DNA of 64,000 bases from an uncultured Poribacteria bacterium (GTDB lineage Bacteria > Poribacteria > WGA-4E > WGA-3G), in NCBI GenBank assembly GCA_951828515.1, contig OX639992.1, positions 4,752,217-4,816,216 of the forward strand. Reading direction: 5' to 3'. The position numbers and the translations under genes were made by a program. Position 1 is the first letter of the stretch. Each line of letters opens with the position of its first letter. This document shows positions 14,780-20,509 of the stretch, in pieces. Below the pieces are notes generated by a model. That model was not told where the DNA came from. It did no database searches and saw nothing but the letters and a program-made list of their open reading frames with translations.

Positions 14780-16795
14780 TTACTCCTTCTCTTCCTCTGA
14801 TTCTTCTTGTCCCTTTGTTAATTCTTGCATGGAAGGCACAAAAACGCGGTCTCCCTCCTTCAAACCACCGGTGATTTGAAAGTGGGTATTATTGCGCTGT
14901 CCGATTGTAATATGGGTTTTGACCCCTTTCTGCTCTTTGTCATCTTTACTGGATTTACCTGTATCTAACATAACAAAATACTGCCGCTCGCTACTCACTT
15001 CGGCTTCTATATTGGGGAGTATATTTCCTTCCGAGATAACAATTGAGATCTCTATCGGACCAGTCTTCAAGCCTTTCTGCGCCTCTTCGACTAATATTTC
15101 AAGACTACCGCGGGTTTCCTCTGGGTCAATCTGACCGACCCGTCCGTCGAACTCCTTTCCGATTAAATTTCGGATTTTGAGCTCCTGACCTGTCTGAAAT
15201 TGTCCAAGATCCGCTGGATTTACCTTCGCTTTAACAGTAAAAACCTTTGGACTCAGTACGGCGGGTATTGGAAGTTGGAGGATATCGGATTCTTCAAACA
15301 CAATAATATCAACGTCCGCAGACATACCGGGCAGTAGTTCGGCGGGTGAACCGATGACCTCTACATCTACCTCAAAGGTGATGACAGAACTCTGGTTCTG
15401 GGGACCGCGCGGCGTCGCACTCGGTGAAATCTCGCTGACTCTCCCCGGAAAAATACGACCCGGATAACTATCAACGCTGATTTCGGCGCGCTGCTCTTCC
15501 TTTATTTTTCCGATTTCGACCTGATTTATCTGGGTCCTCACAATCATCTGATCGAGGTCAGCAATACGCATAATCGCATCGCCACGTGAAAAAGCGGAAC
15601 GACCCGATGTGATAATTTCTCCCTCTTCCACAGTGAGGCGTGTAACCGTACCAGCTATAGGTGCTATGACTGTCGTCCATGCGTAACGCTCGTGTTGAGA
15701 TTCCAGTTGACTTTGTGCTTGGAGCAAACTCGCCTCCGCGCCGACTCTGGCATGACGGGTTAATTCCTTTTCTTCTTCTGTCGTTTCTTCTAGTTGACGG
15801 AGCCGTGTGTGAGCGTTCTCGAATTCCGCTTCCAATTGTTTTTTTCGTGCTTCTTCCGATTCTTTAAGGGTCAGAACATTCTTTTTATTGAGTTCCAGGG
15901 TAGATTCACGACTCTGAATTGCTTCTTGCCGGACATTGATATTTTCTTCTTGGGACTTAACGGTTTCTTTTTGGGACTCGACTTCTTTCTGTGCGTTTTC
16001 ATACTGCGATCTCGCCCCGGCGAGTTGATTTTGTGATTCCTCTAACGTCCGTTTTGACACTAATTTCTTGTCAAATAGTTCTTTATTTCGATTGTATTCG
16101 GACTCTGCTGTTTCGAGTGCTACCTTCGCCGATTCGACAAGGGTTTCCGAGCGATCAAACATTAGTTTTGCTTGTGATAAAGCGATCTCAGCCTGCTTTA
16201 AACCGATCTGATCGCGGTTGAGGTCAATTTGTGTGGTCGCTACCTGCGTTTCTGCTTCGGTAATCCGTTGCTGTGTCGTTGCAACGAATGAATCTAAAGT
16301 TGCCTGTGCCATCGCAACAGAGTTGCGTGCTTGCGCAAGACCACTTTCTTGCTGTTTTTCAGTAATTTGAATTTGGAGTTCCGCTTGCTGGAGTTGGGCT
16401 TTTCGAGCATCTCGGTTCGCTGCCGCCTGTTTCCTTTGTTCCAAAATTTGCTCATCATCAATTCGGAGCAAAGGATTTCCTAATTCAACTACGTCTCCCT
16501 CATCGACGAAAATCTCAACGATCTCGCCTTCCACGTTTGACCGGACATCCACCTCAAGGAAGGAGCGCAGATTACCGGACTCGCGGACCCGAACGAGGAA
16601 TTCGCCGCGACGCACAATTTCCTGTTTATCCTCGGCTGCTTCCTTAGCTTTCCCGAAACTGAAATTCATCCGAGTCGCACCGATTGCCCCAACAGCAATA
16701 ACAACCAAGGCAACGACTCCGATGATAATCCACTTTTTCTGGTTTTTCATCAAGTTCTTCGGGATGGAACTCCCGAATGAATTCGGGAGTTCCAT
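14780..16795 (-). CDS. HlyD/MacA-type periplasmic adaptor (membrane fusion protein), long
   Basis: A 671-residue adaptor linking an inner-membrane exporter to TolC. One membrane helix (WIIIGVVALVVIAVGAIGA, about 22-40), a biotinyl-lipoyl half-motif, a very long Gln/Glu-rich coiled-coil hairpin (about 120-370), the second lipoyl half (ERYAWTTVIAPIAGTVTRL), then beta-barrel domains and a Lys/Glu-rich tail. MacA itself is about 370 residues, so the hairpin is enlarged. Two starts are possible. ATG at 16795 lies inside a 40-bp palindrome, 4 nt after AAGGAG. The second ATG (16750, MKNQKKW) gives the usual N-terminus of the family. Confidence 0.92.
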   Translation of the reverse strand: MELPNSFGSSIPKNLMKNQKKWIIIGVVALVVIAVGAIGATRMNFSFGKAKEAAEDKQEIVRRGEFLVRVRESGNLRSFLEVDVRSNVEGEIVEIFVDEGDVVELGNPLLRIDDEQILEQRKQAAANRDARKAQLQQAELQIQITEKQQESGLAQARNSVAMAQATLDSFVATTQQRITEAETQVATTQIDLNRDQIGLKQAEIALSQAKLMFDRSETLVESAKVALETAESEYNRNKELFDKKLVSKRTLEESQNQLAGARSQYENAQKEVESQKETVKSQEENINVRQEAIQSRESTLELNKKNVLTLKESEEARKKQLEAEFENAHTRLRQLEETTEEEKELTRHARVGAEASLLQAQSQLESQHERYAWTTVIAPIAGTVTRLTVEEGEIITSGRSAFSRGDAIMRIADLDQMIVRTQINQVEIGKIKEEQRAEISVDSYPGRIFPGRVSEISPSATPRGPQNQSSVITFEVDVEVIGSPAELLPGMSADVDIIVFEESDILQLPIPAVLSPKVFTVKAKVNPADLGQFQTGQELKIRNLIGKEFDGRVGQIDPEETRGSLEILVEEAQKGLKTGPIEISIVISEGNILPNIEAEVSSERQYFVMLDTGKSSKDDKEQKGVKTHITIGQRNNTHFQITGGLKEGDRVFVPSMQELTKGQEESEEEKE

Positions 16796-16799
16796 CCCG
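16760..16799. repeat. Perfect 19-bp palindrome at the start of the adaptor gene
   Basis: Arms 16760-16778 and 16781-16799 are exact reverse complements (CGGGATGGAACTCCCGAAT) with a 2-nt loop. On the minus strand it lies exactly between AAGGAG and AAGAACTTG-ATG. Deleting it would leave AAGGAG 9 nt before the second ATG. It encodes residues 1-12 of the longer product, read from its own ATG. Confidence 0.85.
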
Positions 16800-16824
16800 C
16801 TCCTTTTTTTACTTTATTTTTGAC

Positions 16825-17062
16825 TTTAAATTGTTAAAATATGTTAGAATTATTTTAAAGTAACTCGAAGACGATTGTTCGCTCGAACAACTTCCTAAGT
16901 CGGAAGTGTCTGGGGTTGTATGTGGACGTGTAAAGCGTCTGAACGGTGGCTTCCCCCGTGCGGTGGCACATACGTAAAGTTACGAGCCGAAGCCGCGGAA
17001 CATAAACAGTCGAGAAGGAAGGGGCTTCACAAGTTCCCGACTTTAGTCGGCGGGTAGTTGAC
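16825..17062 (+). mobile_element. Probable IS200/IS605 remnant: right end / omega-RNA region without tnpB
   Basis: The stretch about 16930-17062 resembles, from memory, the right end of IS605-group TnpB elements: GAAGGAAGGGGCTTCACAAG, the hairpin CCGAC-TTTA-GTCGG (17037-17050) and the terminal GGGTAGTTGAC. A TTGAC at 16820-16824 on the left and a TTGAC ending at 17062 on the right would be the expected target copy and right cleavage site, giving a 238-bp deletion derivative. No transposase frame remains. It lies between tolC (3 nt from its stop) and the adaptor gene and is oriented against them. The boundaries are inferred. Confidence 0.5.
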
Positions 17063-17064
17063 GG

Positions 17065-18456
17065 CTACTGTAACACTCCCATTGCATCTTGTAAACGCGT
17101 TTGTGTGATTTTGTAATCGTAAAACGTATTCACCTCATCCGTCAGTGCTTGTGCGTAACTGGTTTGTGCATCAAGGAGTTCAAGCAGGATTGCTTTGTCA
17201 ACATCAAAACGCCCTTGAATAACCTCCAAACTCAGCCGAGCATTGACAACCAGTGTTTTTGAAATATCAACGGCGGCTTCACCGCGCTTAAGATTTAGAT
17301 ACGCTTGCCGGACATCTAAGGCGACAGAACGCTCCAAGTCACTCGCATTTTCACGGGTTTGTTCTAATTGCATGGCTAACTCTTTCACCCGATTTCCCAA
17401 AATACCACCGTCAAAAAGCGTAAAGTTAAGTGACACGCCTGCACTCCAACTGCGGAAGTCAGAGAAATCCTCACGCTCGCGGAGGTAATCATCGAGGTTA
17501 ACGTTGTAGTCAACATCTGCATTCAGACGGGGCCAGCGCTGTAATTTCGCGAGCGTCAATGACCATTCTTGTGACCTCAATTGCGCTTCCGTTTCTTTAA
17601 ATTCCGGACGATTGTCAAGGGCTATCTGGATAGCTTCCTCAACCGGTATTGCTATTCTTTCAATGGTACCGCGTTGCTGATATAACTGAAACGCTTCATC
17701 CGCCGCAACGGTAATTAAAACACCCGGGTCTAAACCAAGAAGTCGTGGTAACCTGGCTTTTGCAACTTGAAGGGAATTTTGGTTATTTAGCAGCGTTAAT
17801 CTGTTATTTCCTTCTCGCACCTCTGCAGTCGCTACATCCGCTGGAATGAGCGAACCTGCCTCTACAAAATCCTTAGTTCGCTGTGTGTTCTCCTGCGCTC
17901 TTGCCAAATTCTGTTCACTCACTTCGACCAACGCTTGAAATTGAAGGACATCGTAATAGGCTTCAGTGATTTGCAGAATTAGGCTCTGTTTGATCCCCTC
18001 ATTGCGGTTCACAGTGGCATTCAGTGATTCTTTTGCCTGTGCGAAACCACCCTCGCGTTGACCATTGTCCCAAATTGTGTATTGTGCACCCAGTCCTAAA
18101 TTATAGTTTTCGGGTTCAAAGCCGAAGTCGACTCGGTCAGAAAAATCGTAAGCACCGGTTGAAAATATGCGTGGGAAATAGTCAGCACGTGCGGTTTTTA
18201 TCCGAAGTTCCTGTATCGCAAGATTCAGGCGCGCATTGCGCATACTCGTTGACTGTTCTAAGCCTATTTGGATGCATTGCTCAAGGGTCAAAGACTGGGT
18301 TAAATCAACTTCGGTGGCAGGTTCTTGTGCATTTACGCAAAGAACGGCTGCGAATTGAACGGTGAGTATGAATTTTAAGAGCAAGCTTCGGAAACCTACA
18401 CGGCGCGCTCCTTTGAACTTTGAGAAAATAATGAACATAACTTTCCCTTGAATCAT
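17065..18456 (-). CDS. TolC-family outer-membrane efflux protein
   Basis: A 463-residue outer-membrane channel with an N-terminal signal segment (LLLKFILTVQFAAVLCVNAQ), then the OEP repeats: SLTLEQCIQIGLEQ start, YYDVLQFQALVEVSEQNLARAQENTQR, and the second half EEAIQIALDNRPEFKETEAQL with NLKRGEAAVDISK. Trimerises to form the outer duct of tripartite exporters. The ATG at 18456 is chosen because AAGGAG lies 6 nt before it; a second ATG at 18438 is also possible. First gene of the TolC-adaptor-ATPase set. Confidence 0.93.
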   Translation of the reverse strand: MIQGKVMFIIFSKFKGARRVGFRSLLLKFILTVQFAAVLCVNAQEPATEVDLTQSLTLEQCIQIGLEQSTSMRNARLNLAIQELRIKTARADYFPRIFSTGAYDFSDRVDFGFEPENYNLGLGAQYTIWDNGQREGGFAQAKESLNATVNRNEGIKQSLILQITEAYYDVLQFQALVEVSEQNLARAQENTQRTKDFVEAGSLIPADVATAEVREGNNRLTLLNNQNSLQVAKARLPRLLGLDPGVLITVAADEAFQLYQQRGTIERIAIPVEEAIQIALDNRPEFKETEAQLRSQEWSLTLAKLQRWPRLNADVDYNVNLDDYLREREDFSDFRSWSAGVSLNFTLFDGGILGNRVKELAMQLEQTRENASDLERSVALDVRQAYLNLKRGEAAVDISKTLVVNARLSLEVIQGRFDVDKAILLELLDAQTSYAQALTDEVNTFYDYKITQTRLQDAMGVLQ

Positions 18457-18877
18457 TAACAACTCCTTGTCCGTTCCAACATTTATAGACGCGCTTTCTG
18501 GCGGACGCCTGTGTGTCGGTTTTAACGCTTTCTAACAGGAAGTTTTGGGAACCCATGAGTTTCGCCAAAAACTTATTATTATAAATTGTGACATCAATGC
18601 GAGCCTCTCCAATTTCGCCTACGCGCCTGCTGCTAACCTGTGAACGGAATTCCGAACAGCAGACTTTCATACAAGACAGACTCTGAAATTCTAACAGTTA
18701 AATTTTAACTTTCAAGGCACGCCAAAAAGATTGTATTTATAACATTTTGACGCAGTTTCTTGACAAAAGTTTAGACATTTTAACACCCAAAGAAGTTCTT
18801 TTTTCTTGCAATCATTCGGAATTTCTGTTAAACTGCTACTAAATTAGAAACTCTGGAACACACTTCGGACGAAAGAC
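18457..18877. other. Divergent intergenic region, tolC / caspase-like gene
   Basis: About 420 bp without a convincing gene. A weak plus-strand promoter candidate is TTGCAA (18806-18811), 17 bp, TAAACT (18829-18834). AT-rich runs elsewhere suggest further promoter sites, but none is clear. Reading frames here are unconvincing. Confidence 0.4.
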
Positions 18878-20509
18878 ATGTCAAAGCAGAACATTTTTTT
18901 TATCTCCATCCTTATATGTGTCGTATTTGCTGCCTTCGTATCAACACCAGCACTGCTGGCTGACCCTGGGACACACTGGCTAATTGTGGATGCAACGTCG
19001 GAAGTACGTGCGCATGAACTGGTGAACTCACTGATCGAAATCCTAACGACACGCGGAAAAGTACCCAGTGAGCAGATCCACCATATTGAAGGGGACGGTG
19101 CCACGGCTGATGAAATCCATGCCATGCTTCAGGAAATTGGGAGGCAAACCACGGTTCAGGATACCCTGATTTTTCTATATCATGGGATGGTTGCCAAACC
19201 GAGAGGCATGAACGCCATGCACCTGCTAACCCCAGGAGACGAACAAGGGATCCAAGATGCCACTCTCAATGATTGGTTCAGGGAGACAGACAGAAAGAAC
19301 ACCGTTGTTATTGTCGATGGTTACACCGAGGATACGAACCTAAACGCCTACTATGCGAACCGTGAGACGCTTGGGACTGCTGCGCTCAACTCGATACAAT
19401 CGGCAGGAAACGCAGATACGACAGTCCTCCTTCAACAACTCCACGATGTACTCGCTGCAGAAACAACCGATACAAACGATAATCGACAACTCAGCATTAT
19501 AGAAAACTACGAATTGTTGCGAACGAATCCCAATTTTGTGGATGGAATTCTCGCACCAACGGGTGATGTCGAAATGGCACTGCTCAAACTTAGCCCTGCG
19601 CTTAAGATCACAACATTCCCTGAAGGGGCAGGTATTTCCATCAACGACGTAGAAGTTGGAAGCACACCGAAACTCATCACAGAAAATCTGATACAAGGCA
19701 CCTCCACTATAACTGTGAAGAAAGCGGGATATGTCATCCCTCCATCCAAGACCGCTGAACTCCAGTTAGAACTTGGAGAATCCATCCATATCGGATGGGC
19801 ACTTGAGCCTATTGCTATTCACGGAACCGTTATAGGCGTTTCAGGTGAATCCCCTGCCGAGGCTGTTGTTTGGATTGATGGAACGACGCATCAACAGGTC
19901 GTAGAAGCGGATGGAATCTACCGTTTCGATGAATGGAAGGATTCAGGTTTATTGAGTCTCGGCGAAACTTATACGCTCTATGTGAAACAGGGTGCCCTGA
20001 ATTATGGTTCGGCAACTTTCACATTTGACGGCTATACCGACATAGTACAACCCCTGCAGCTTGCGAAGCAAACCTGGTTTGAAGTCGCACAAATCGAATT
20101 TGACCGGCATAACCATCAAGGGGCTGTCACTGCTTTTCAGAATGGGATTGAACTCACGAGCGATTTCCCGCAAATGTCCCCTGATTTAACAGTTTTACTC
20201 CTCAGTTCCTTCGCTGATGCCGTAGAGAAACAAGACGTTCAGGATGTCACCTATCTCATTGTTACAGCAAAACTCGCGGAGCAACTCGGTCAGCCTGACC
20301 TTGCAAAAAGGTATTGGGAAGAGACGAAAATGAAAGCAGACAAGGGAAGTTCCGCCGCTAAACTCGCAAGCCAGCGGCTATGGCAGCTGAATCGTGGACG
20401 CTATCTCTTGAATATTGGCTTGATTGTGTTGCTGGTCGTCCTATTGGCGTCAGGGGCGTGGACGTTTTTGAGATACCGAAAATCCAAGCGAACTGCGCCA
20501 GCAGATTGA
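18878..20509 (+). CDS. Secreted/membrane caspase-fold protein lacking the catalytic Cys, with PEGA domain
   Basis: A 543-residue protein with a signal peptide (1-28), a caspase/legumain-like domain (about 33-200), a PEGA domain (about 232-290, ITTFPEGAGISINDVEVGSTP), a carboxypeptidase-regulatory-like beta domain, a helical region and one C-terminal membrane helix (YLLNIGLIVLLVVLLASGAW) followed by a basic tail. In the first domain the His motif is kept (FLYHGMV, His102). Where clan CD enzymes have Asp-x-Cys, the sequence reads IVDGYTED (Asp147-Gly148), so the nucleophile is missing. It is probably a periplasmic, membrane-anchored pseudoprotease or binding module. It stands alone. Confidence 0.7.
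   Translation: MSKQNIFFISILICVVFAAFVSTPALLADPGTHWLIVDATSEVRAHELVNSLIEILTTRGKVPSEQIHHIEGDGATADEIHAMLQEIGRQTTVQDTLIFLYHGMVAKPRGMNAMHLLTPGDEQGIQDATLNDWFRETDRKNTVVIVDGYTEDTNLNAYYANRETLGTAALNSIQSAGNADTTVLLQQLHDVLAAETTDTNDNRQLSIIENYELLRTNPNFVDGILAPTGDVEMALLKLSPALKITTFPEGAGISINDVEVGSTPKLITENLIQGTSTITVKKAGYVIPPSKTAELQLELGESIHIGWALEPIAIHGTVIGVSGESPAEAVVWIDGTTHQQVVEADGIYRFDEWKDSGLLSLGETYTLYVKQGALNYGSATFTFDGYTDIVQPLQLAKQTWFEVAQIEFDRHNHQGAVTAFQNGIELTSDFPQMSPDLTVLLLSSFADAVEKQDVQDVTYLIVTAKLAEQLGQPDLAKRYWEETKMKADKGSSAAKLASQRLWQLNRGRYLLNIGLIVLLVVLLASGAWTFLRYRKSKRTAPAD

Follow-up and report, generated by a model that had tools for sequence, protein, structure and literature searches.

Our comparative analysis of a 64,000-nucleotide stretch of DNA from an uncultured Poribacteria bacterium (hereafter, the window) indicates that a short insert between a tolC-like gene and the gene of its adaptor protein is probably a non-autonomous transposon of the IS200/IS605 type, whose cargo would be a standalone omega-RNA of the TnpB type, a function that we infer. 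The features of the insert and its flanks are as follows (positions are those of the window; models R1 and R2 are described below).

14780–16750, minus strand: HlyD-type adaptor gene (Pfam HlyD_3), with the start ATG at 16750 set by comparison with relatives
16747–16750, no strand: target TCAT in the left flank, the reverse complement of the ATGA at the adaptor gene start and a candidate TAM
16751–17062, plus strand: whole putative non-autonomous IS200/IS605-type element, 312 bp; the same junction is empty in 19 of 19 relatives and the ends agree with other copies
16760–16799, no strand: left-end hairpin with an 18-bp stem, homologous to hairpins in other copies, in TnpB elements and in IsrB-like elements
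16800–16804, minus strand: AGGAG at the hairpin foot, a proposed replacement Shine-Dalgarno, 9 nt from the adaptor ATG with the hairpin folded
16820–16850, plus strand: sigma-70-like promoter TTGACT-19-TAGAAT, 10 of 12 consensus matches
16860–17001, plus strand: predicted RNA scaffold core with pseudoknot, supported by covariation, by model R1 (148.7 bits, the window copy being part of R1) and by model R2 (at 16930–17004)
17036–17054, plus strand: right-end stem-loop CCCGAC-TTTA-GTCGGCGGG with a UUUA loop, resembling stem 4 of the ISDra2 omega-RNA (PMC10097598)
17055–17062, plus strand: right-end tip TAGTTGAC, the final bases ahead of the guide
17063–17078, plus strand: putative 16-nt guide GGCTACTGTAACACTC, supplied by the flank and antisense to the terminal part of tolC, positioned by analogy with ISDra2
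17065–18462, minus strand: tolC-like outer membrane efflux gene (Pfam OEP, 5e-61)

The tolC stop and the adaptor ATG are 1–2 nt apart in all 19 relatives (junctions read from the sequence), which makes the entire 312 bp an insert, present at this junction in a single genome among those compared. Homology among the aligned copies extends to the left past 16825, through the hairpin to a tip of the form CAA..TTC.G preceded by TCAT or TCAC; the left hairpin and tip of other copies, together with the 19 relative junctions, place the true left end at 16751. An earlier note on this DNA had described a 238-bp deletion derivative flanked on the left by the TTGAC at 16820–16824, whose excision would join TTGAC to the base before the tolC stop. 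That TTGAC is present, but it is the −35 element of a promoter conserved across the family, and the longer element is one of a family scattered over many sites, equipped with a promoter and a conserved fold. Given an insert at 16751–17062, excision would instead rejoin TTCAT to GGCTACTG (17063 onwards) and restore the ancestral junction. As in IS200/IS605 elements, the insertion follows a short target on its 3′ side and has not duplicated it: TCAT is present once, on the left. The left boundary was assigned in 20 copies, and TCAT or TCAC is found in 20 of 20, the motif having been required by the boundary search. A candidate adaptor start at the ATG at 16795, within the hairpin, was rejected, as the relatives place it at 16750. 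The efflux operon is adjoined by a gene for a PEGA-domain protein (18878–20509, plus strand), the N-terminal half of which has no Pfam assignment.

The right-end hairpin and tip are of the IS200/IS605 type, as the earlier note had described them. The pattern ACTTTAGT..GGGTAGTTGAC occurs in at least 117 stretches of a public genome collection, which puts this end beyond chance; among the matches listed, many have a TnpB-element-like 3′ end upstream. The stem-loop at the element tip (17036–17062) is directly followed by the flank that would supply the guide, an arrangement typical of TnpB omega-RNAs, and the suggestion that the guide begins at 17063, antisense to tolC, is borne out to the extent that the analogy with ISDra2 fixes its position. 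A genome search for TCAY plus GGCTACTGTAACACTC, allowing up to three mismatches, gave the occupied site itself as the sole match and no other site. With regard to transcription, many relatives carry TTGACA-17-TAGAAT or TTGACA-17-TATAAT (11–12 of 12 consensus matches), and the spacing is the consensus one in most copies; the site at 16820–16850 is overlooked by a fixed-spacing promoter scan owing to its 19-nt spacer.

Model R1, built from 19 copies, describes a scaffold of seven helices including the pseudoknot, with 94.4% of the cells paired. Double changes number 83 versus 24 in shuffles, and pairing falls to 33–43% once partners are slid (19 copies); since the structure was derived from the same sequences, the slid control is biased toward it, and the shuffles are the fairer control, albeit one that related sequences can exceed. 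Several positions in several helices hold G-U pairs on the plus strand that would be A-C on the minus strand, and this asymmetry, together with the direction of the promoter, fixes the plus strand. RNAalifold gave −90.3 for the core copies on the plus strand versus −78.1 on the minus strand; the z-scores of mean folding against shuffles fail to separate the strands, so that the call relies on pair types. The pseudoknot backed by covariation differs from the guide-proximal one of ISDra2, in which the last scaffold bases pair with a site about 100 nt upstream; by inspection, the corresponding UUGAC has no clear partner here. Assignment to some other RNA family, which the earlier note had counted against its reading, was not obtained from Rfam, which gave nothing at gathering score and, at low score, only chance matches to the left hairpin.

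The TnpB elements of the same genome that we read follow the same order of parts as the insert, namely TCAT, left hairpin, promoter, gene and right-end hairpin. A second model, R2, was made of nine own-genome TnpB omega-RNAs trimmed of the right-end hairpin, and thus addresses scaffold homology beyond the terminal hairpin, a hallmark of membership among TnpB omega-RNAs. Over 32 loci, its eight best matches (E 6.5e-5 to 0.03) all lie on the sense strand of TnpB-less elements; the chance share is about 2% per hit, and as the hits are mutually related, the multiplied value is no probability. These scores are not high, and a single hairpin and a single helix account for them. The top match in the window (16930–17004, plus strand; 11.4 bits when 501 bases were scanned without filtering) is weaker than these eight. 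The reverse search with R1 yielded nine weak matches beyond the window, with E between 0.1 and 6, of which the eight checked fall in TnpB 3′ regions, the ninth (L297) overlapping the L028 locus. The covariation, the G-U pairs and R2 all agree with the earlier suggestion of a plus-strand, omega-RNA-like scaffold with no tnpB beside it. That note had also made its case depend on TnpB-linked relatives, which were found in part: linkage to TnpB was observed for none of the full RNA copies, yet the family and the TnpB elements of the genome have the same right end, left hairpin and promoter position and share part of the scaffold. Use in trans, likewise suggested there, is plausible in view of 48 TnpB-domain matches elsewhere in the genome (versus only 6 for the Y1 transposase), and the three TnpB proteins checked score above the cut-off of NCBIfam guided_TnpB. 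Own-genome TnpB loci (L015, L020, L021, L028, L031 and others) have a conserved structured 5′ leader (GTATCACGTTGGCAGACAT ... GCGTTACCGCTTGGTAACG ... CGTGATACGTG) between the promoter and the tnpB start, and the loop of its hairpin resembles the GCTTG loop of the omega-RNA; TnpB may thus control its own mRNA through the leader.

The 238-bp sequence occurs once in its own genome. With 16860–17062 as the query, matches were found in 28 of 145 related genomes (own included), near full-length copies being present in eight genomes besides its own at 73–82% identity. R1 recovered some 60 copies, distributed over 24 of the 386 genomes searched and over three genera of one order, and gave no credible match among 100 public loci that share this right end; the full scaffold is therefore not widespread but confined to this order. 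Exact-pattern scans of viral contigs and plasmids gave no match. The TnpB and IsrB-like proteins of the genome, scanned against 116 loci (with many overlaps and duplicates), revealed no nuclease linked to the full RNA, several copies lying at contig ends. Nuclease-protein matches were obtained in 3 of the 116 loci only: L215 and L239 are ordinary TnpB elements with only the right-end hairpin in common with the family, and in L240 a TnpB lies 1.6 kb away. Copies of the family other than the one in the window adjoin unrelated genes.

Gene-less IS605-derived elements are already known from Haloquadratum, where the PATEs carry end palindromes of the IS605 type and include documented core-deletion relics (PMC3119063). 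By this precedent, the insert could be an inert decay product, left behind when a TnpB or IsrB element lost its gene and now merely carried along. The left end also speaks for such an origin, since its likeness to the 3′ end of IsrB-like elements includes even the codons AGG AGC. We regard this origin as improbable, given the compensatory changes over 19 copies, the conserved promoter and the many occupied sites; some PATEs are described as terminal transposon relics, whereas the family described here combines a promoter with a covarying RNA. It is also rather unlikely that the insert serves the host, with an antisense RNA to tolC made from the promoter, with the hairpin and AGGAG tuning translation of the adaptor gene and with no nuclease involved. 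Its location between the two genes and the Shine-Dalgarno-like AGGAG would suit such a role, but the site is occupied in one genome only, other copies lie at unrelated genes and the scaffold resembles a TnpB omega-RNA.

The matching ends originally raised the suspicion of a minus-strand guide RNA of the HEARO/IsrB type, its guide lying toward tolC and its 3′ target motif being ATGA. Indeed, the ends match those of IsrB-like elements of the genus, which share the end hairpin, are likewise inserted before ATGA or GTGA and have AGGAGC at the hairpin foot; moreover, minus-strand folding of the window copy alone is better than that of its shuffled versions. On the other hand, the plus-strand G-U pairs would become A-C, the promoter points the opposite way and the HEARO model RF02033 has no match to the element, on which grounds we rejected this reading as very improbable. 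In IscB and IsrB elements (HEARO), the guide RNA is encoded on the other strand, upstream of the nuclease gene.

The closest known counterpart of the presumed TnpB-type RNA is the omega-RNA (reRNA) of ISDra2, which also has a plus-strand scaffold, a right-end stem-loop with UUUA, a guide from the flank and a target motif on the left (PMC8612924, PMC10097598). The UUUA stem-loop of the window lies near the position of the ISDra2 loop, the published stem 4 region having a UUUA tetraloop (PMC10097598). Unlike in ISDra2, there is no overlap with tnpB, the RNA has its own promoter and an extra 5′ domain of two hairpins is present. Encoding of a guide RNA apart from its nuclease has reportedly been seen for IscB in Ktedonobacter, whose standalone omega-RNAs are said to act in trans; those are of the IscB and not of the TnpB type.

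If the insert indeed carries such an RNA, its transcript would run beyond 17062 and copy a 3′ guide from the flank, and a TnpB made elsewhere in the genome would bind it in trans. In the model put forward by the authors of the ISDra2 study, the donor site (target plus guide) is cut by TnpB after resealing, and repair brings the element back (PMC8612924). By the same logic, a TnpA made elsewhere would excise the element, the TnpB-RNA complex would then cut the resealed TTCAT-GGCTACTG (the counterpart of the ISDra2 cut site here being TCAT plus 16 nt from 17063), and repair from the sister chromosome would restore the element. Cutting of the occupied site would be avoided, since the guide match there is preceded by TTGAC and not by TCAT.

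The same left end appears to provide a solution for survival at start codons. In 16 of the 20 copies with both ends (L163 and L164 being one site in two genomes), the target ATG or GTG is itself the first codon of an ORF of at least 145 aa; the longest in the other frames is 114. In several copies a displaced Shine-Dalgarno is visible beyond the element, e.g. aaggaggataaacc before the ATG in L158. AGGAG lies directly before the hairpin on the gene strand in 19 of 20 copies; not counting the hairpin, it is 7–11 nt from the start. The left hairpin and AGGAG thus apparently form a portable ribosome-binding site, as inferred from the sequence: the element would insert between the Shine-Dalgarno and the start codon of a gene, which the portable site would keep expressed. 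An alternative reading of the same stretch is a plus-strand terminator, with CTCC before a T-run.

More tentatively, there is a fair chance that mobile RNA genes give TnpB many guides in trans, that the hairpin-bridged ribosome-binding site permits insertion at start codons without silencing, and that guide-RNA and TnpB genes have become separate, cooperating mobile elements. If so, TnpB guide RNAs would persist and disperse as independent genes, one nuclease serving many elements, one step toward the separate guide loci of CRISPR, and the portable site would account for the persistence of such elements at start codons. Neither a standalone guide-RNA family of the TnpB type with its own promoter nor a hairpin-bridged ribosome-binding site was found in the literature searched, which is weak evidence of novelty given the limited reach of that search into subscription journals.

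In most of the IsrB-like elements read, AGGAGC forms near-terminal codons (Arg-Ser), and several of these elements sit before a start codon; the AGG AGC codons may double as the Shine-Dalgarno of the next gene. The loci L288–L306, from the same genome and relatives, encode many IsrB-like proteins of about 340 aa with a HEARO-like RNA upstream (Pfam RRXRR in the one tested). At L293 (G000:C1:1899500-1904500), a HEARO match below threshold immediately precedes an IscB-like ORF of 631 aa.
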